A DNA stretch of 64,000 nt, taken from assembly GCF_031877795.1 (NCBI RefSeq), contig NC_133939.1:5437698-5501697 (forward strand), read 5' to 3'. This DNA comes from Strix aluco (taxonomy: Eukaryota; Chordata; Aves; Strigiformes; Strigidae). Position 1 is the stretch's first letter, and every line of letters begins with the position of its first letter. The position numbers and the translations under genes are program-made. This document shows positions 3,734-42,185 of this stretch, in pieces. The notes beneath the pieces are model-generated. The model was given only the letters and a program-made list of their open reading frames with translations. It had not been told where the DNA came from and did no database searches.

Positions 3734-5361
3734 GAGCGAAAATAGAACCCATGACCTTTATCTGTGCCAAACTACCTGTAATTTCATCTCCCAGAAGAAA
3801 TGCCATATAAAAAATATTAACCTTGATGATCAGTCTTCTGATCACACACTGAATGAACTGTGTTGCTGACACATTGCAAGAGAAGCTCAAGTGAGCATGC
3901 GCTTTCAAATATTTGTAACACTTGTCTGTCTTAGATGTAGTATAAGAATTCAATTCAAATTTTGGATCTAGAGAAAGTTTAGCTGGATTTTAATATAATA
4001 TGGGTGCAGGGGGTGGAGGAACCCTAATATGGGAGCCTGTGCTGATACTCTAGATCTCCTTCATTCTTAAAGAGAGACGCACAATAACAGGTGTCTTGCT
4101 TTTGGAAAGAAAATGTCCCCTTATTGTATATGCTCTTACCAAATACATAAACTCCTTGAGTCTTTGCAAACAAAGGTAGTTATTTTTTTCCTCCTGTTGA
4201 AAATTCTAAGAGTGGAGAAATAGCCTTTAGTAGTAGGATAACTGGACACCCTGAAAGGTAAGGTGCTGGTTTTCATCCTTTTATCACTAGGTTATGTGCT
4301 GCAAGTTACAGCAGACTATGACAGCCAGTTACTGTCAGAATATAACTGTCATTCCTGTGTGCTGCTAAATTAGCAAGCTGTCCACTGGTTTACCATTGCC
4401 TTGCTTAAATTAAGTTTTCTTTCTTCCACATTTTATAATGCACTTGGAAACTAACTGCTTTCTACTATGCAGTTTCTAGTAAGCATAAACAAACTCTGAA
4501 ATTAGTCTGGATTTTGGGTCCATTACTTCTACTGAGTTGCTCTTATTTCAAGTTATAGATGTGCTATTCAGTGCAAATCAGAATTGAAGAACTCAGTCTA
4601 GCAGACAGCTGTTGAAAAGAGAGTTTTCTGCTCTATGAAAATGTTCTCAGCTTGGAGTTATGCAGACATTCGTTCATGAGACAAGAATAATAGCTTTAAT
4701 TTCTCCTGATCTTTTCTATTTCCTGTTTAGCAGGCACTTTGAGTGGTAACATTTGATTCAGCACTTGTTCATCTCTCAGACCTCTGTAAACACACAACTT
4801 TGGTCCTATAGGAACCAGTGTGTGCTCAGAGCCTGTAAAGCATACATGCACTGTGGTGGTAAGCCTAGATGTTTACCCCATCAGAGAACAAGTACTCCTT
4901 CCTCAACAATGAGCCCTCCCTTGCTCACAGTGAAACATGGACTTGTCTTAAAGCATTTACACCGAGTTCCTTGAGACATGATCTGGCAGTGCTGGAAAAG
5001 CAGCTCTGCCAGATCTCTCCAATCTGCCAACATATGCACAATGGTTCTCTTGTTCCCTCAGATGTGTGTGTGTGAAATTCAAACGCTAATGGGAGTTTTG
5101 CACATGGGTGGCGGGGAAGAGCCCCACTCTCTTTGTGCATCTAAATGAGTGCCACACTTGTCAGAATAGTTGATCATTTTGCATGCAATCAGATATTCCT
5201 GCTATAACGTCCATTGCTGGCAATGGAAACATTTGAGACTAATGACTGAGCTGTTTTGACATCCTATGTCTGATCTAACTGGCTATAAGTCAGAAGCAGT
5301 CCATACTTCACCTGTACAAAAGAATTTTGCAGCCAAACTGTACTACTGTTTCTGGTTTTTA

Positions 5362-5367
5362 AATAAA
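5362..5367 (+). terminator. Candidate MYO7B poly(A) signal
   Basis: This is an AATAAA hexamer with a TGTCTTTTTT stretch about 25 nt downstream, on the MYO7B strand. It would give a 3' UTR of about 1.65 kb. Hexamers are frequent in AT-rich DNA, so this is only a candidate. Confidence 0.35.
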
Positions 5368-5773
5368 CACTGCAGAAAATCAACCACAATGTCTTTTTTA
5401 ACAAGAAATTTCAATATTCACTCTAGATCCATGTAGCCTAAACCTACCAAACATGCACTACAGCCTGTAAATGATCATAGCATCCCATCTACTCATTATA
5501 TACATGACACAATTTGTACAGCACAGCCTCTAAAAGGATGATACCCCTTCCTGCACATCCTCATCAACCCACACATCACCACAGAAGCAGCACAGATCCA
5601 AAACGTGCATTCACCACGACAGTGCATCAGATTTCAGCAATCCCCTGAGTTCTGCAAAGTGCATAATGCTCTCTGGCTTGGCATTGCAAATGCAATTTCT
5701 TTTTACTGTACAATATACCACTTTTTTACATTTGTTTTTTTTGTGTGAAGATTTAAAATGTGTTACAGTTAAC

Positions 5774-5779
5774 TTTATT
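5774..5779 (-). terminator. Candidate distal LIMS2 poly(A) signal
   Basis: AATAAA on the minus strand, facing the candidate MYO7B signal about 400 bp away. If used, the LIMS2 3' UTR would be about 4.5 kb and would contain the R2-type insert in antisense. Another minus-strand AATAAA at 7314-7319 would give a shorter UTR. The sequence does not decide between them. Confidence 0.3.
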
Positions 5780-5941
5780 ACAGGAACATAAAAAGGTACA
5801 GTATTACAACATTTCAATCCACAACCACATGTTTTGGTTAGACAGCACAGTAATGTATGACAAAATGAGAGCTCCACATGGTGCAGAATCCACGCTGCTC
5901 ATCATGGCCTGAACCAAAGCAAGTAGCTGCTAATTCTTTTA

Positions 5942-6062
5942 GCGGGAGTAACTACGACTCTCTTAAGACGGGATCATTGTTACTAGCTGGGCTCAGTTGC
6001 AGAGGTCATACCTCCACGTGGTCCCGCTGGATGCCCTTTGGGGTAACCAAACTGGCCTCTGC
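5942..6062 (+). ncRNA. HDV-like self-cleaving ribozyme of R2 retrotransposon type
   Basis: The double-pseudoknot fold of HDV-like ribozymes can be written with few exceptions. P1 pairs 5942-5947 (GCGGGA) with 6022-6027 (TCCCGC). P2 pairs 5999-6008 with 6053-6062, ten pairs including one G-T. P3 pairs CC at 6011-6012 with GG at 6020-6021 around a 7-nt loop TCCACGT, close to the HDV L3 sequence. P1.1 pairs CC 6014-6015 with GG 6029-6030. A short P4 is CCC 6034-6036 with GGG 6040-6042. The catalytic strand CAAA (6048-6051) fits the family's CNRA pattern, with C6048 as the expected active-site cytosine. J1/2 is about 50 nt and contains the rest of the 28S-derived sequence. Predicted cleavage is just before G5942, about 26-28 nt upstream of the R2 insertion point, a position known for several R2 ribozymes. 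Activity is inferred, not shown. Confidence 0.8.
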
Positions 6063-6461
6063 CCCGGTGTGACTGAATCACGGCTGCTTCCTCCCTATCA
6101 AGTGACATCACCGACCACTTGACAGTACTCCAGGTGACCCAGAGTAGTGGCATCAATTCCCTATCGACCGCCCAAGGCCTTCACCCACAGGCTAAGTTGG
6201 GCAAAGCCTGACATTTCTGGAGGGGGGACTGTCGGACTGTGACAACCCTCCCAACCAGACTGACGTGGTGTGCGTCTTCTACCACAGTCCAGGGCAAGAG
6301 TGGATTGACCTCTGCTGGCTCCCGCCCTTGCTCTGCTGCTGGTTGCAACCCAGTAGGTGTTGAGGGGGGGGGGACACAAGTCACACCAGACCTTGACTAG
6401 GACTGAAGTGCCAGCCTAACAGTCAACGGTTGTTACCTGCCGGCTATGACAGTACAGTGGG
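5942..6461 (+). mobile_element. R2-type non-LTR retrotransposon 5' end outside rDNA
   Basis: Positions 5942-5967 match the 28S rRNA sequence just upstream of the R2 target site at 25 of 26 bases as recalled (one C for T at 5954). The match breaks off right after CTTAAG, where R2 inserts. A compatible HDV-like ribozyme follows. The rest is markedly more GC-rich than the surrounding DNA and ends near 6461. Possible imperfect target duplications are 5932-5941 and 6462-6471 (7 of 10 bases). One frame at about 6220-6345 contains PGQEWIDLCW, weakly like the acidic N-terminal region of avian R2 proteins; it has no ATG and is stopped on both sides. No zinc finger, reverse transcriptase or endonuclease is present. 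It is therefore a 5' remnant or an internally deleted non-autonomous copy. The 3' boundary is uncertain. Confidence 0.72.
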
Positions 6462-9400
6462 AATTTCTTCAGCCAATAACAAGATGTGTCATAGTCTTGG
6501 TAAAATTCCAATTGCCTATTCTGGCGATCAAATCCTGATCTGGCCACAGGTGGATGGGCCACTTCCACTTAACCCGGAAAACAGACATATGCATTCGTTG
6601 TATGTGTTTGATAAACAGTCTATACCATCCTCAGCACTTAATAGTGCTTTACAGACTAGCACAACCACACTTATTACATGTTTGCCTGCAATCTACTCCT
6701 TCACCATCCAACTACTTTTAAAAAGAGTGTCAGTCAGATCATCTAATACAAAACATGAGACATCTAGAAACTCTCTGTACAGAAGGTTGAACAATATTTG
6801 CCTACATTGCAGAAACTGCTGTAAGAATAAAGACCAGGATGCAAACCCCAGAGAGCATATTAGGTTGCCATAAAGAAAGACTGCAAGTGATTAACATACA
6901 CTTTGAATACAAATAAGCTTCACATAACTGTGGTTTCTAAAAGCAAAACCATTTTCAAGTGTACTCAGTGAATATTAGTGATTTTAATTCAGTATGTATA
7001 AATATAAATGTAAACTATAAATGTATATAATGAGACAACAGCTTTTAGTAAGTGTAGACTTCTGAGCCAAGTTCAACCTTGATATGAATCTATACTCTCC
7101 AGTGGTGTGATACCTAGGATGAATTTGGCCAGCATGTCTATTTACAGCAATGGAAAAAAGCATGCAGCTTATTTCTGGCTTGGACATTGACTTTATCTTA
7201 AAAAACAAACCAAACCCAACCTGTCAGTCTATCAACACACTCAGGAGAATTTGTAAATCTGCATTATATTCTACTTAGTTTTTAAAAAGTGGACTCAAAG
7301 TAGAGGAAGATGCATTTATTTAAACTATCTAGTTATTTCTCCTACTCCTTCAATTCCCCTGTCCCACAAAAGGTATGTCAGTAATATTCACTACTATAAC
7401 TCTGCACATTGCAGGTTATGGGCATCAGAAGTATAAGAAAAATAATTGTGAAAAATTAATAATTTAAGAGATATTAAGAGAACATCACCCTCTGCTAATA
7501 TAGAGATATGGGATTATGATGTTTTTTCCTCCCCACTAATTTTGGGAAATGGTCTGAAGATAGGGACATAATCCAAATCCTAGAGAATTGAACACCTTAT
7601 CAAAGAGAGTGATACCAACTGTCCTCTGAGTACTGAAGCTTACCAGGTCTACTGAATTTCTAACATGAGACAGAGTGAGAGGACACACTAGATCTCAACT
7701 TGCAGTACAAAAGTAATTCCATTTACCTCTACATACATGCATTTTCCATTGCTGAACTTGAGAGTGGCCAAGGAAAGAATATTACCTATTGCCTGCTAGT
7801 TACATAGTCTTTCCATATTTACCAGTAGCTCTGTGGCTGTGTGTTCCTCCACCATCTTCCCAGAAGGCTGAAGATACACACAGCTGCTCAGATTTAGCAT
7901 TAGACCTGGCCTGTGACTAAGTTTATAGGAACAGACATGAATGCTTTATGCTGAGAAGAATCTGCATAACATACTGAACTGCGCCTAGATCAGTAGCTCT
8001 TGTGTTTTATGCTGTGAAAAAAATGCCAAAGAACAGGCTTACAAGACCGGTCTTTGCAGTGGCCACATACTACTGCACCAAAAGACATGTTGCTCTTTGT
8101 GCCTTTAACTAAAAGACCATTTAAAGGCTAGTGAGAGAACAGTGACTAGCCGCATTTTCTATTAAAGCAGTGACAAAAGCAGCTACTATTACTGTAATCT
8201 GCAGTGCATATTGGTCAGAAGAGGATGGAAGAGCTCTACTGTTAAAATTAGGCCTACACCCTCATCAGTGTTATGGTGGATGCAGTGTACCCCAGGTGAA
8301 AGTTTATGGTTACTCACAGCAACAAAAAGCAAAGCAGCTGAAGGAAATTGAATTAGCAAAGCCAGTAAGTATCTAAGACATGGTCTCGCATGTGGAATTC
8401 TTACCTGCACACAGTTAACCAGGGTTTCCCACCACTGCTGTGATATCACTGGTCCAGTTTCATGGGTAGTAGCCACAGCTTAACGGCTATCAAGGCTTTA
8501 GCTATTTTGTTTAGATCTATTCTGAGCAGAGTGCGATGGCAGTGACGAGAATTTTAAGGTAGATTATTGCCCCAATCCAGTTGCTGCTCACACATACAAG
8601 AAATGAGGAAGCTTTAACTTCTTGCTAGCTAATTCACCTGGGGCTGCAGGGTGGTGCCTAGGCCCACCTCCTGTGTTCATTTGACCTACTAAACCAGCCA
8701 CTTTTTGGAAGATTTAAATCATGCAAGGGACAGCAGTCCTCCAGTGCCTTTCATCCTGTCTACCTCACGGAAGGGCAGGCATAGTCTCCAACTATACATG
8801 GAAAGGGATTTTCAGGCTGCTCAGCTTAGTTCAGCCAAGAAATCACAGGGGACACCTCCAGAGGTCTCAGAAGCTCACTGTGATTATACAACACACAGGT
8901 GGACTCAGGAACAGCACTGCTGATGGCCCACCCCTGAAGAAATATCAAGAATGTTTAAAAACCAGTAAATTTCTCAGCACCTTGCATTGTACTAGCAGAG
9001 ACAGTACAACCAGTGAAACTTCACCAGTGACAGGCAAAATTACAGAGCAGAACTATATGCTTAAGATGTACAGATTCATGCCTGAGGTCCTCTCTTTAAG
9101 TACACTCAGGTCTTAAGAAGAAAGGTGATGGGAAACTCTTCTTTGGGTGAAAATTTAAGAAAAATGCTTCCTGGGTTTTTTCTGCGTAAAACCACATTTA
9201 CTAGAAACTGTAAATATTAGAAACCTCTTCATGTAATTTGGCTTTCTGAAGCTTTCAACAAGCATATACTCATCTTTCAAGTAAAATGAGAAGGGCAGGG
9301 AAACTGAAGTGCTTAAATTGGTACCATATTATCATTTTGATTTCATCATGTAAAGGAATACCCAGGCTCCAGCCACATTGCCTCAAGAAGTGTCAGCTAT

Positions 9401-19200: not shown

Positions 19201-22200
19201 AATACTTGCAGGTTTTACTTTGTAAGGGACAAATAAACACTAGAAACAAAACCTTCAGGCTCCTCTGTAAACCCAGGATATTCACACTGAAAACTGCAAT
19301 TTTCCTTCTGTACATGAAAGCAAGATTTCATGTGTATTTTTATAGGTGAAATGTCCCTTGGAAAAAAGGGCTGTACAGTCTTTCTTGCACATGCACTTCT
19401 GGTAATGCCAAGATAATAATTTGTTGCCATCTCTAGGACTACAAAGAAGCATGCAGCTGGCAGTAGGCAGCGAGTACCCATACACTCAAACCTAGAGGGT
19501 TTTTTTTGTGCCATAAACATGCAGGGTATCTAGGCAATGTATGGAGTAAGAAGGCCCCTCTGTGGCCATGTGAAGAAATTTCAGTTTCTGAATTTCATTC
19601 AGTCTCCCTTCTGTTGACTTTTGCCTCTTCAGCTGTGAACTAAACAGAAGTGGTCCAGCATATTAATCTCTAGCCATTGTAGTCTTCTGTCCACCTGAAA
19701 GTGACAGCAGCCAAACAGAAGATGGTGACTACCTTGGAATTTTGTCTACATTTTCCAATATATTGGTCTGTTCTTAACTCCATTTCAGTTTCTCCATTAG
19801 GCACCAATATTTTTAGACATCTGAATAATCAGTTCTGTTGGGAAGTTGGATACATTCTGTAATGCCATGGATCAACTGTCCAATGATTTAAGATTTCAGC
19901 ATATAGCATAGCTTTTGCCCGAGACTAAAAATTTTGTCTAACAATGTCAACAACTGTCTTAAAATTTTAATGTCAGTAGAGGAAAATGGATGTATTTAAA
20001 GATGTATTGAATGTTATGGAGAAACGGTCGATCAGTACAAAATGCAACAGTGAGCACAATGGAGGTCCTGCTGCACACACTGTAACACCTCTGAGGAATC
20101 CAAGAAACAAGAGACAATGCTGGAAACTCACACTGCCTGCATTTCCCTACCACCTATACCCACAGATGAGAAATGTATAAAAAGCCATGGGTAGGTGCCC
20201 AGAAAATCTTAACACTTCTTGTTGATGCTGTTCAGGACCCTGAAGACAACAGAGATACTGGCAAAGCTAAGCTCAGTTTTACTAAGCTGCTCGTGGGAAA
20301 AGGCCCTGCATAAGCTACCGTGGAGTTCATGCTTTTGAGAGGGAGGAAAGAGAGAGTTATGCTGGGAGAAGAAAGCTGCAGGGAAGGATGACACTTTGAC
20401 AAGTAACCAATCTCTTCTGAGTCAATTCAGTGTTTTTTAGTGTTCAAATGAGATGCTCCTACTCATCTGAAAAGTTTCCTCCTATATTGTGACTAGATGC
20501 ATTTGCCCTAAATACAGGATTTAAGACTAAATCTCAAAGACTTTCAGGAACCCTGCGGGTTTCTTAATAACAGCAATACCTGACCTGCCTTCCACCTCTT
20601 CTAGGACCAAGACATATTCTAAGCTAGGTCATCTTACAACAGATACCTGTGCTCAGAAAAGCTGACTCATTAGGAGCATTTCAGTCCCAAATCAGGCTTT
20701 CAAATTAAACATAGCAAATACCTTCTAGCTAGGCATACTGAATCCACTTCCACTCTTCCATTAACCAGACACACAGGCATTTCACTGCTCTGTTATTCAA
20801 CTGATCTCAGCACAGGCTGGAGACAAGCTCATAATCAGCTAGCTTTATAGTGGTTCCTTCAACAGGAATTAATGGTCTGGAAAACTCAGCTGAGCGGGAG
20901 GTATTCCAAATTTTAATATAGGGGTTTAAACTCAGACTGACCTGTTGTATTAAATACCAATATTAGCAAACAGGAGACATCACTGATTTTATTTGTGTTG
21001 GGTTTTGGGCATTTTTCTGGGGTGGTTTTTTTTTTCTTCACAAAACCAGGCTCTTTTGTAATATACTGTTTCAATTCTTTCAGGTTTTGGGGGTTCTTTT
21101 CTTCAAAACTGTGGTGAAAAATGAATGGCCCAGGAGATCCATCAAGCCTACTTTTCAACTGCTCAAATCAATCAAATTTCTCTTTGGAAACGTCAGAGCA
21201 ATGTGGCAAAGAGACACACCTTGAGAACATCCTTTTTGCCACTTTCTACTTCCTGGACTTCATCCTGGCTTTTGTTGGCAATGCTCTGGCTCTTTGGCTC
21301 TTCCTTCGGGACCAAAAGTCAGGCACACCTGCCAACATTTTCCTGATGCATCTTGCTGTGGCTGACCTGTCCTTTGTGCTAGTACTTCCCACCCGGCTGG
21401 TGTACCATTTCTCTGGTAATCACTGGCCATTTGGTGAGATCCCATGCAGACTCACCGGCTTCCTTTTTTACCTCAACATGTATGCCAGCATCTACTTCCT
21501 CATGTGTATCAGCATTGACCGTTTCCTGGCCATTGTGCACCCGGTGAAGTCCATCAAGCTCCGCAGGTCACTTTATGCCCATTTGGCATGTGCCTTTCTA
21601 TGGGTTATAGTTGGGGTTGCAATGGCACCTCTGCTGCTCAGTGTGCAGACAGTCAAAATGAAAAACACAACCGTCTGCCTGCAGCTCTACAGAGAAAAAG
21701 CATCACGTCATGCCCTTGTGTCCTTAGCAGTGGCATTCACCTTCCCATTTGTTACTACCGTGACTTGCTACTTATTAATCATCCGAAGCCTGAAGAGTGG
21801 GAACAGAGTTGAGAAACATCTGAAGGAAAAAGCTATCAAAATGATCATTATGGTCCTGATGATCTTTCTGATTTGCTTTGTACCTTATCATGTCAACCGC
21901 TACATTTATATTCTCCATTACAATGGGATCAAAACTTCCTGCGAAACACAGCGTATTCTAGCCCTCAGTAACCGCATCGCTTCCTGCCTCACGAGTCTAA
22001 ATGGTGCCTTTGACCCAGTCATGTATTTTTTTGTAGCTGAGAAATTCCGTGAGGCTTTGTGCAATCTGTTTTGTGTTAAAAAGACTGTAATGTTGCCTCA
22101 AACATACGAGGGTAAGACAAATGAAAGCTCACTAAGTGCTAAATCTGAACTGTGAACATAACTCTTGTCACTGCTTCAACTTAAGAACGCTCTATTCCAG

Positions 22201-37200: not shown

Positions 37201-40200
37201 ACAAATTATAGAAGCAATCTTCTCTTGTTTATGGGTAAAGAAGCACCATAATATAGTTCTAAAGGCACCAAAAATAACCTAAATTGTATTTCTCAACACT
37301 GTAAAATACAGAAAGGCTGCTTAGAAACATACTATTTTTATACCTAACACATTACATCCTATTTTTTTATTTCCAAATGTAGTTAAACAACAGGTAACTT
37401 AATAAAACTAAAATACACATATATCTTTAATTTCTTCCTGTCCTATTATCTTTGGCTCTGAGTTGGAACAGATATAGTCAAAGAAAGGGTGATTTTTATT
37501 TTTTTTTTAAGTTAAAAGCATCCCTTTAAACCATAGACTGCTCTTGAAATGAGGGACTGTAACAGGCACTTTAGTCAAGACACATAGAAGTAAAATAGCT
37601 TAGCCAAGACGTGGCAGCCAGAATTACTACTTGCAAATTCCTATGATCTACTTACCAGTTTTCTCTAACAAAACACAATCCTCACATTGTAACAATGTAA
37701 CTCGTGATAAATGTAATATTTCAATTTAATTTGCTAAATAGTCACCTCTTATTAATAATTTTCTGCTATGAATACACAGAAGTGCACATCTTTTTTTGTA
37801 TTTTCCGGAATTATATTCTTCCCTAATGCTAAAAAACAGTAAATCAAATCACTGCAGCTATTTAAATTCAGGAGACATGCAGCTAAATGGAACAGAACAC
37901 TTAAAAATGAAAATGGAGTTATTTGTCATCTATCTTAATTACTAATAATGCATCAGCAATCACAGTACCTAGAAGTGAGTCCTTTTGTGTTTCTATTTTA
38001 CAAGAAAGGCAAAGTGAAAAAGAATAATGTGTCAGCACCTCGTGTTCTCCAGTCTTCCTTGCTTTAACACACTGTAACACAGCAAAATCATTCCCTTCCC
38101 TGTGTCAACAGTTTCGAGACCAGAAGCACTTTTATGTCACGTTCCTGGCTCTGGAAGGTTCCCATTGATTGATATTGTGGGGATGCTCCAGCTGTTAAAA
38201 AGTTCATCTCCTTCCAGAACCCTGAAAACCCTGATTCTCAAAAGCTGCAGAACATTTGATTACATAATGTTGACAGGTTTTAAGAAATACCACATAAAAA
38301 ACATCGAACAACATCTGGCCACAGTTGAGTAGTGTGACCTGCAGGTGGATCTAAGGAAGTAGGTTCCCGATGCTGAATTCTTTCTAATGAGTTAGGAGTC
38401 TGTCCCAGCCTGAAAACAGCGCTAAACATGGTGCTTGTCAAATGGCATCAGTCATGCAAGGTGCTGAGCAGTCCAAAGTTTCACAGACACCGAAAAGTAC
38501 AGGTTTTGTTCTGCTGGGAAACTGCTACCCTGAATGGATTATACTATTACTGAGGAAAAAGTCAGCTGAATTACAGCTGTGATAAATGTCTCTGATAGAA
38601 AAGGTAATCATTTTGTCGTAGGAATGGCAGCAGGCAGAAATTTAGAAATTTTCTTGTTGATAGACTCTCCAGGACAAACATTTCTGAAAACATTAAATAA
38701 CACTTGCATTCACTTTTCAAAACTAAAGCCAAGGCCTGCTCATTTTAACAACCCTCTGAAGTACATCTGGGGAAAAGGAGACAGAAATCCTGCATTACTT
38801 TGAAGAACTGCACACTCTGCAGCATCTCAACTACCTTGGAACCCTCCACCAAGCCTCATGCTTCACATCAGAGCTTCTCACTGAATATAGTGTTGTACCT
38901 TAACAGGCAAGTTTCTGAGGAAGCATGAAGACAGCAAGGATCACTGTCCACATGCATTTCCCACTGTCCTCTGCAGCTGAGTGACTTCACCTGAGGTAAA
39001 CATGTCATTCTAACCAGTACTACACCACGGTTCTATAAAAATAAAATCAGCTGGGTTCATGCAGCCACAATTCTCCCTGGGTCCTCCCCATCTTGTCCCC
39101 ATTTAGGAGCTGCATGGGTATCGATGACCTGTGAACATTTAAGACTCTTGAGTCTTCCTCTAATTGTAAGGAAATTAATGTAAACTGGTAAATACACACG
39201 TATTTCACATGTCAGAAGAAAAAAAAAGGGACCATTAAGACAGAAAAGACAAAGTTATCTAACGACAGAAGGCAAAAATCAGAAGTGTTTTGAGCATGTA
39301 CCCATCAACATCAACTTGTCATCACAGAGAGCAAAAGTAACACTCACCCAAATCACAGATGAGGCTATAACAATTATTCAACACGTTCTCATACCTAACA
39401 ACCCACCAAACGTGATCTACGTCAAATAATCATAAGCTGCATAATACAAACATCAAGACTTTACACAAAAGAAAAATGAATACTTATTCACAAAATACTC
39501 CAGATCCACTTCAGTATTCCTATTCATGAAGAGCAATGCCTCAGAGAATTACAATCACGACAGCGGGCTTCAGGAGGATGACTATCCTAAGAAAGGCACC
39601 CTACTAATTTTAATATTACTTCTTCATGCTTTTCATCTTCACGACATTGTACAAAAGCAAACTTATTTTCACGAAGTGCTTTATAACGTCTGGGTTTTAT
39701 TTTACAGATGGGAGAACAAAGTGATCGGAGACACTAAAGCACTGTGCAAACCCTCAGAAGATGCCAGTAAAAGCTTTCCCCACCGCTTTTCTCATTTACA
39801 TCTGTCAATTAGGTGACTTTACAGAGTTCTCCAGCGTCAGTCAGCGTGGGAGGAGACTCAAGCTCCAGATTTAAACTCTTGGAACATGTAACTCCCAGGC
39901 CAGCCCGAAGAAGAGGAGCCTGAATGTGCGGGCAGAGGGGCAGCGTGGAGCGCAGGGGGGCGGCGGTGCGGGGCACGGCGGTGCGGGGCACGGCGGGAGC
40001 AGGCTGCCAGCGCCCGAGCCGCACCACCCGGCTGCAGGGAGCCTGGCTGCTGGGCGGGCACTGCTCAGATCCACAGTGCTCCTTCCCAACTCCGCTTCTG
40101 GTCTTCCCAGCGCCCTTCGCTGCGTCCCGGGGCAGGGGTAAGGCACAGCGCAGCAGCCCTTCCACGAGGGCAAGTTTCCGACCGTACAATGGCACGGCGG

Positions 40201-40800: not shown

Positions 40801-42185
40801 AGAGGCTGGCGGTGCGGTTTTATGACGAGGCCGTTACCCGGTGCACAGTTATATCTGACATACACCTCACTGAGGTGACGCTTTCTCCCGTGAACAAAGA
40901 AGCCACGCTTCCTGCCCGCAGTTACACTCATTGCACATCCCCACGGCGAGGGGAAAACAACTTCCCAGCGTGTTTTGCCCCCAGGGCAGCAGAAGACACC
41001 TCTGGAAGGCTATCCTTCTAGATCACTCTTCCAGAGGAGGACCCCTCCAAGCGTGACGCTTTTGGTAACATCTAATCCCTTCCTGCCCATGATTAAACTT
41101 TGTCTTGAGTTTTATGTTTGCCCATGATTAAACTTTGTCTTGAGTTTTATGTTTGCTGACATGTATCAATATATAACGTATCAATGCTAAAGTGATCCAC
41201 CAAATGGGACAGCGAGTTTCTGACCAGAAGCAATTTCAAACTTTATTTGCATCTTGTAAGGCAGCCTAGTATGATGTGACTCACCATTGCTATGGATATT
41301 GTTGCAAGCTTGGGACTGATGATGGAAAGTCTGTGTTCTCTCTGTTTCCTGGTGTCCAAACATCTCATTTTTCAGCCCTGCAGTAAACATTTAGAATCAT
41401 AAAGGTTAAATTAGTATTTGGTATTTTTATTACTTATTTAAACTAGGGTGAAGAATTGAGTTAGATGTTCTTATTTTGGTTTAATGGTTGATTGAAGAAA
41501 GGGTAATCTTATTAATAAGCAGCCAACAATTTAACAGATTTGGCTGAGCGCACAGTAATAAACAGACTGAGAGCTTCTTACTCATCCTCTGCATCTCTCC
41601 TGTTGCAGTGGTTTCTGGGTGCCAACGCATAATGTTAGAGAGAAGCAGAGATTACTTGGACTGGCTGTGTGAGGAGACCCCAGGTGCTGCCAGGGGTGTC
41701 GGGAGGAGCACAACGCAGGGCAGCGCTCGACCTCGAGCGACCTCCTGGCCACCGGGCCCTCACCCTGGGCAAGTCTTCCCCTCGCCTCCTGCGTCCCATG
41801 GGGGCTGTGAAGGGTATCCGTCTCAAATATCACCGTTCTCTTACCAAGCTACATTCTGAAGTGATACCATCTTCTTTCCAGCTGCTGAAACCACAACCTG
41901 TTACCGCTCGCAGCTGCCAAGCCCTTTCGGTCGCTTCATGCGGAGCAGCCGAAGCGGGCTCTCCTGCCAGCAGCGACATGGCCGCCCCCGGCATCCTGCT
42001 CGACAAGCTTCCCCACTCCCTCCGCCACATAAATCTGTCTTTCCTTTAAAACCACGAGCAGGCGAGGCGCGGCAGTTGGCAGTGGCCCAGCGGGCCCGCG
42101 ACGCCCGCCTCGGCCCTCACGGCTCCGCGCACGCGCGCCGCCGCACGTCAGGGGGCCGGTAACCCGGATGCAGCTACTCCGCAAG
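40801..42185. other. LIMS2-SFT2D3 spacer between GC-rich blocks
   Basis: The spacer between the two divergent promoters. Apart from a 35-bp tandem duplication at 41084-41156, the central part (41.0-41.6 kb) is AT-rich and shows nothing recognisable. The GC content climbs again from about 41.6 kb. A 23-codon ATG frame at 41980-42051 was noted but not called. Confidence 0.6.
41084..41156. repeat. 35-bp tandem duplication (two copies)
   Basis: A 35-bp unit beginning TGCCCATGATTAAAC occurs at 41084-41118 and again, identically, at 41119-41153, with three more matching bases. Perfect identity points to a recent duplication. Confidence 0.92.

Follow-up and report, generated by a model that had tools for sequence, protein, structure and literature searches.

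Short derivatives of the R2 retrotransposon are already known from Drosophila. R2Dwi_SIDE of Drosophila willistoni, 529 bp long, is described as joining the R2 5' ribozyme to the R2 3' end without a coding region; its ~197-bp centre is unlike R2, and it lies in 28S genes as a young family with <3% divergence (PMC3414825). An internally deleted avian R2 copy is likewise already known from the budgerigar, where R2-2_MUn comprises parts 4–517, 604–726 and 4370–4700 of the ibis element, and its description reports neither a foreign middle nor a multi-copy family (PMC5035012). The full avian R2 elements (zebra finch R2-1_TG, sparrow, ibis and others) are presented as site-specific (PMC5035012, PMC3774820, PMC11331408), and non-rRNA sequence is reported to border a large number of avian R2 copies (PMC5035012). 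The R2NS families of planarian and liver fluke are characterized as autonomous families that have lost target choice and insert outside 28S (PMC5035012). Ribozyme cleavage at 28S position -28, counted from the R2 site, has been predicted for zebra finch R2 (PMC3774820), and in vitro cleavage has been shown for the sparrow R2 ribozyme (PMC11331408).

The window analysed here is a 64,000-nt stretch of the Strix aluco genome, located on contig C9 of the 1.41-Gb assembly that was searched. It contains an element of ~675 bp consisting of an R2 5' UTR with an HDV-like ribozyme, a middle of ~120–175 nt related to the domesticated retroviral gene OVEX1, and an R2 3' end (Table 1). We consider it very probable that window 5941–6618 represents a short, non-autonomous, SIDE-like R2 derivative that was inserted off target long ago by R2 machinery acting on ribozyme-cut RNA. 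The R2 5' ribozyme, the R2 3' end, the missing coding region and a non-R2 centre are all common to this element and R2Dwi_SIDE as described; unlike the latter, the window family lies outside rDNA, is 10–17% from its majority sequence and has a centre with an identified relative. With the full avian R2 elements it shares the ribozyme with -28 cleavage (predicted here), the conserved 5' ~100 bp and the 28S flank, but it has no ORF and occupies non-rDNA sites. Its internal deletion recalls R2-2_MUn and its location outside 28S recalls the R2NS families, although the present host also has R2 in 28S. No avian R2 SIDE with an OVEX1 part was reported among the open-access literature matches listed, and a dispersed multi-copy bird family with an OVEX1-related middle is new as far as these searches go.

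Table 1 Features of the R2-derived element in the window.
Feature	Position	Strand	Basis or remark
28S-derived head, 28S positions -28 to -2	5941–5967	+	25/26 for 5942–5967; start point shared with other dispersed copies
5' strand of P1, starting at 28S -28	5941–5946	+	A5941 is a mutated G or host flank
HDV-like R2 ribozyme (P1, P2, P3, P1.1, P4, J4/2)	5941–6062	+	Covariance model and 26/26 pairs
P1	5941–5946 with 6023–6028		6 bp if counted from A5941; 5 GC-type pairs if counted from G5942
P2	5999–6008 with 6053–6062		
P3	6010–6012 with 6020–6022		
L3 loop, UCCACGU	6013–6019	+	Alignment A2 and pair tables
P1.1	C6014, C6015 with G6030, G6029		Alignment A2 and pair tables
P4	6032–6036 with 6041–6045		
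J4/2 CNRA strand, CCAA	6047–6050	+	C6047 is the expected catalytic cytosine; variation among relatives
R2 5' UTR part, with most of the ribozyme	5967–6264	+	blastn and profile against R2 copies L018, L019, L020 and others; right edge uncertain, 6252–6264
Middle, related to last codons and 3' UTR of OVEX1 ORF3	6274–6396	+	Profile similarity spans about 6258–6433
R2 3' end up to ...TTTGATAAA	6457–6615	+	Last ~86 nt by plain blastn, rest by profile; left edge uncertain
3' junction, CAG (28S: TAG)	6616–6618	+	

The window element is homologous to R2 5' ends residing in 28S of the same genome. Among these is locus L020 (C39:184539–191807), where an R2 element of 4365 bp has 28S on both sides and matches both a C2H2 zinc finger and a reverse transcriptase, its frame being cut by one stop codon. 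Relative to this copy, the window element corresponds to R2 1–312 and R2 4272–4365; by profile, the R2 parts cover approximately 1–326 and 518–683 of 683 positions (window 5941–6264 and 6457–6617). No R2 coding match was found between 6264 and 6457 by blastn or profile, and the frames scanned in the window gave no R2-type Pfam or PDB match, only weak unrelated rows. An autonomous R2 element was rejected, there being no reverse-transcriptase ORF between the two R2 ends, as was a tRNA-headed SINE, for which ARAGORN found no tRNA in 5800–6800.

Searching the genome at the DNA level returned 20 matches. Seven long copies (the window copy and L009–L014) cover about 5942–6618, all at non-rDNA sites with non-28S flanks; L009 is without the first ~44 nt and the head of L013 is altered. 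Pairwise identity among the seven is 75.8–88.4%, and each is 82.9–90.6% identical to their majority. With a bird substitution rate near 2e-9 per site per year, the family would be some tens of millions of years old. The short element was not seen on the rDNA contig C39, where a query from its 3' half matched only via the R2 3' end; since the rDNA may be incomplete, this absence gives a lower bound. Two further loci, L027 and L039, were considered as short derivatives with other middles and rejected: their middles match R2 5' regions of L015, L023, L024 or L025, and they are thus deleted R2 copies.

The ribozyme was evaluated using a covariance model for which only rDNA-contig copies of R2, five in number (L017, L018, L019, L020 and L022), served as input, with P2, P3 and P4 as pairs. 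The first-pass annotation had described an apparently intact HDV-like ribozyme with its parts in order and had named a covariance model as the check; both the description and the check held up, as the window copy scored 147.1 bits (E 2.7e-32) compared to 8.2 bits for the next place in the window, and 12 of 17 other loci scored 55–137 bits. All 26 pairs form in the window copy as a nested double pseudoknot in order, though the structure was drawn on this copy and so favours it. Judged by these pairs, its motif is intact. The full set is found in no other of the ten dispersed copies in the pair table, the remaining nine having each lost at least one pair, and in three of five rDNA copies. Certain L3 bases are essential in HDV-like ribozymes, and L3 is here counted as conserved. 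Pairing is retained in 94.1% of the paired cells across 15 copies, compared to 27.6–51.1% with the partners slid. Covariation is weak because most pairs hardly vary (score equalled by 16/500 shuffles, two-sided pair changes by 133/500). The CNRA strand had originally been read as CAAA, with C6048 as the base to mutate. Relatives carry CCAA, CUGA or CCGA at positions 6047–6050, and U is present at 6048 in five of 15 copies, four of which have C at 6047; the catalytic cytosine is therefore expected to be C6047, within CCAA, and not C6048.

Could the ribozyme-like fold and the 28S likeness be a product of chance? The Rfam models do score below their gathering thresholds: a scan of 8 kb gave no match at E<=1, and a scan of 551 nt returned drz-agam-1 alone, at 16.5 bits against a gathering score of 37. 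However, the R2 5' end in rDNA locus L020 also gave no HDV-like family at E<=1, which indicates that the Rfam models are insensitive to the R2 ribozyme here. A descriptor containing no 28S letters, but written with knowledge of the window site, matched once in the window (both strands) and never in 150 simulated 64-kb sequences (9.6 Mb). Together with the 147 bits from a model trained on other copies and the 25/26 identity to 28S, this contradicts a chance origin, the probability of which we regard as negligible.

Self-cleavage of the window copy is plausible from its sequence. The pseudoknot-free minimum-energy fold differs from the ribozyme fold (z -0.98; 27/200 shuffles fold as well) and pairs the P1 3' strand with 5969–5973, so that misfolding is possible; the CGGGA at these positions could pair with that strand in place of the 28S head, as a competing fold. 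Selection keeping the ribozyme in the window copy was also considered. Ribozyme sites differ from the majority of the other copies at 2/119 positions, compared to 66/528 elsewhere (Fisher 7e-5; scan over windows 0.0006), but the difference is not significant in two stricter comparisons, limited to sites where the others are unanimous (1/76 vs 15/303, p 0.13) or to the three closest copies (3/101 vs 30/426, p 0.09). Subfamily structure may explain the low divergence, and selection is accordingly not claimed.

The 28S head was compared with a 28S reference that agrees with the 28S letters of L020 and with the Rfam LSU consensus. The 26-nt segment with one mismatch noted in the first-pass annotation was recovered at 5942–5967, but with the sole mismatch at C5955 and not at 5954. 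Its start point is shared by other dispersed copies, and of all remaining 28-mers on either strand of the window, the closest is identical to 28S at 18/28 positions, compared to 25/28 for the head. At -28 the G of 28S is replaced by A (base 5941), and only 6 of the 31 bases upstream are identical to 28S, so the likeness ends there. Among the ten dispersed copies with a readable head, G is present at -28 in only five.

A query combining 28S and R2 (L020:970–1330), carrying 30 nt of 28S before -28 so that query position 31 is -28, gave 25 genome matches, of which 13 are off contig C39; one of these (C40:44762430) was left out of the fetched sequences. All 13 stop at or 3' of -28 and none extends upstream. 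Eleven start no more than 10 nt from -28 (query 31–41), three of them exactly at -28, two at -27 and six others within 10 nt, and the other two begin inside the element. On C39, all seven R2 matches begin at query 1 or 3 and hence continue into 28S, two pairs among them being identical and possibly assembly duplicates; five further C39 matches comprise the 28S part only (1–56). This difference between the off-rDNA 5' ends and the rDNA copies suggests that the templates of the dispersed copies were probably RNAs already cut by the ribozyme. The cut in the window copy is expected before 5941 (28S -28), as published for bird R2, one base further 5' than the cut before G5942 that had been proposed. 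The idea that the inserted RNA was a ribozyme-processed R2 transcript stands as to processing and R2 origin, given the 5' ends at -28, but the RNA would have been that of a short, internally deleted derivative with a foreign middle. DNA recombination moving a piece of rDNA together with an R2-type element would account for the presence of 28S letters; it is contradicted by the end points at or inside -28 in 13/13 non-rDNA matches and by their unrelated flanks, and is very improbable.

Sequences flanking the dispersed copies do not resemble 28S, and for the 5' flanks a likeness to the 28S target is no more than marginal (p 0.034; nine flanks, post hoc). In L012, L014 and L015, the element is immediately preceded by short repeats of letters from the 28S head (such as AGTAACTA); these resemble published R2 template-jump junctions and may have arisen in a similar manner.

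At the opposite end, the R2 3' end TTTGATAAA of L020 continues into TAGCCAAATG of 28S. The 3' junctions were counted over 13 dispersed copies with a readable end. The count leaves out L023 and L024, whose 3' end lay outside the sequence covered or was not located, and L027, whose end is degenerate, together with L025, L026 and all rDNA copies. Following ...TTTGATAAA, TA is found in 11/13, TAG in 7/13 and TAGC in 5/13 copies, as in 28S, and the summed match to 28S is 37, whereas random places give a mean of 4.7 and a maximum of 17 (5000 draws). The longer matches come from 5'-truncated copies and long R2 copies; the window copy and L014 read CAG, and four of nine family copies match by TA only, which could be the element's own end. 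The matching bases may have been carried on the RNA as a few 28S bases or supplied by the target, and both fit R2-type priming, for which a requirement of about 4 nt of 3' homology is reported (PMC12222951). The 5'-truncated copies L034 and L036 retain the 3' end, as would be expected from target-primed reverse transcription. A target duplication was found in one of nine copies, L012, as a 16-nt flank repeat with 14/16 matches; the other eight, including the window copy, showed none above shuffles. The R2-like 3' junctions and the lack of target duplication in 8/9 copies point to insertion by R2's own machinery working off target. The L012 flank would also suit insertion of the R2-derived RNA in trans by another LINE of CR1 type, as would the position of L010 directly after a repeat that we take to be a CR1-like 3' repeat, but such a source is improbable given the eight copies without duplication above shuffles and the 3' ends, which are exactly that of R2 with no CR1-type tail in the letters inspected.

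The middle of the element gave eight genome matches, seven in the family copies and one at C4:6644746, where it overlaps the last codons and 3' flank of an uninterrupted 876-codon ORF (locus L026, C4:6639877–6648747; ORF 4988–7618, minus strand). Over its last 300 aa, this ORF shares 89% identity with chicken LOC422926 and with a kiwi protein; LOC422926 has been assigned to Ovex1, a gene transcribed in gonads, as its 3' part (PMC2717909). Pfam gave only one weak unrelated row for the C-terminal piece of the OVEX1-like ORF. A similar C-terminus is present in ten bird proteins, chicken included, and OVEX1 is by this comparison an endogenous-retrovirus gene conserved across birds. As R2 was not found in chicken (PMC5035012), this favours OVEX1 as the donor and the R2 derivative as the acceptor, a direction suggested by DNA from one genome and by proteins from the other birds.

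The anatomy of the element, its family, the shared 5' end point, the R2-like 3' junctions and the likeness to OVEX1 are observed in the sequences; from them we infer the following course of events, including the cleavage, the transcription from 28S, the inserting protein and the order of steps. The R2 coding region would first have been lost and an OVEX1 3' piece placed between the R2 5' and 3' parts, either by RNA template switching or by DNA recombination. A source copy residing in a 28S gene would then have been transcribed together with it, and cleavage of the transcript by the HDV-like ribozyme, 28 nt upstream of the R2 site, would have left an RNA headed by ~26 nt of 28S. An R2 protein recognising the R2 3' end would then have copied this RNA by reverse transcription into a site outside rDNA, duplicating little or nothing of the target.

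Alternatively, the dispersed copies might not have come from rDNA but constitute a true ribozyme-headed SINE, in which the ribozyme trims read-through transcripts of dispersed copies to a common 5' end before a further round of retroposition. Whatever the transcript, the ribozyme would give it the correct 5' end; the motif is still intact in the window copy and the short element was not found on the rDNA contig, although a 28S-borne source may be missing from the assembly because rDNA arrays are poorly assembled. The loss of at least one pair in all nine other dispersed copies of the pair table argues against such a SINE, and the roughly equal distances of the copies from their majority (82.9–90.6%) better suit a single source, a point that seven copies cannot settle; we regard this alternative as unlikely. 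Its fuller version is likewise unlikely: an R2-dependent SINE, born when R2 ends were fused with the 3' end of a domesticated retroviral gene that is expressed in gonads, would have spread by itself through the bird genome outside rDNA, every transcript would have had the same ribozyme-made 5' end, and the window ribozyme would still be active and may have been kept.

Under the preferred reading of off-target insertion from a ribozyme-cut R2-derived RNA, this genome preserves naturally occurring R2-type insertions at sites other than 28S, in which the common 5' end marks the predicted cut in many copies, as well as an example of a short R2 derivative acquiring host sequence. Bird R2 proteins are under development for gene insertion into human rDNA, and the family offers a dated, orthology-testable set of sites for R2 specificity over evolutionary time.

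Long R2 copies are also found outside rDNA (L015, L023 and L024). L015 (C14:23862190–23868462) is a nearly complete, interrupted R2 with its 5' end at -28 and a TAGCC 3' junction, and its L3 sequence UCCACGU is common to the short family. On C39, L016/L017 and L021/L022 form two identical pairs in opposite orientation, representing a large inverted duplication or an assembly artefact; one copy of each pair was used in alignments A2 and A3. A reverse-transcriptase ORF at L020 6392–7261, presumably CR1-like, lies in or adjoining the downstream 28S.

Elsewhere in the window, a single-exon ORF at 21121–22155 shares 97% identity with a GPR17 cluster of 302 members, whose representative is from the loon Gavia stellata, which marks the host as a bird. 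A minus-strand LIM pattern lies at 14.6 and 25.7 kb, and the neighbouring ORFs resemble what we take to be LIMS2, SFT2D3 and WDR33. The segment 39900–43500 is GC-rich (59–67%), with tandem repeats at 39961–39996 and 41084–41156, and includes the presumed SFT2D3-like ORF.
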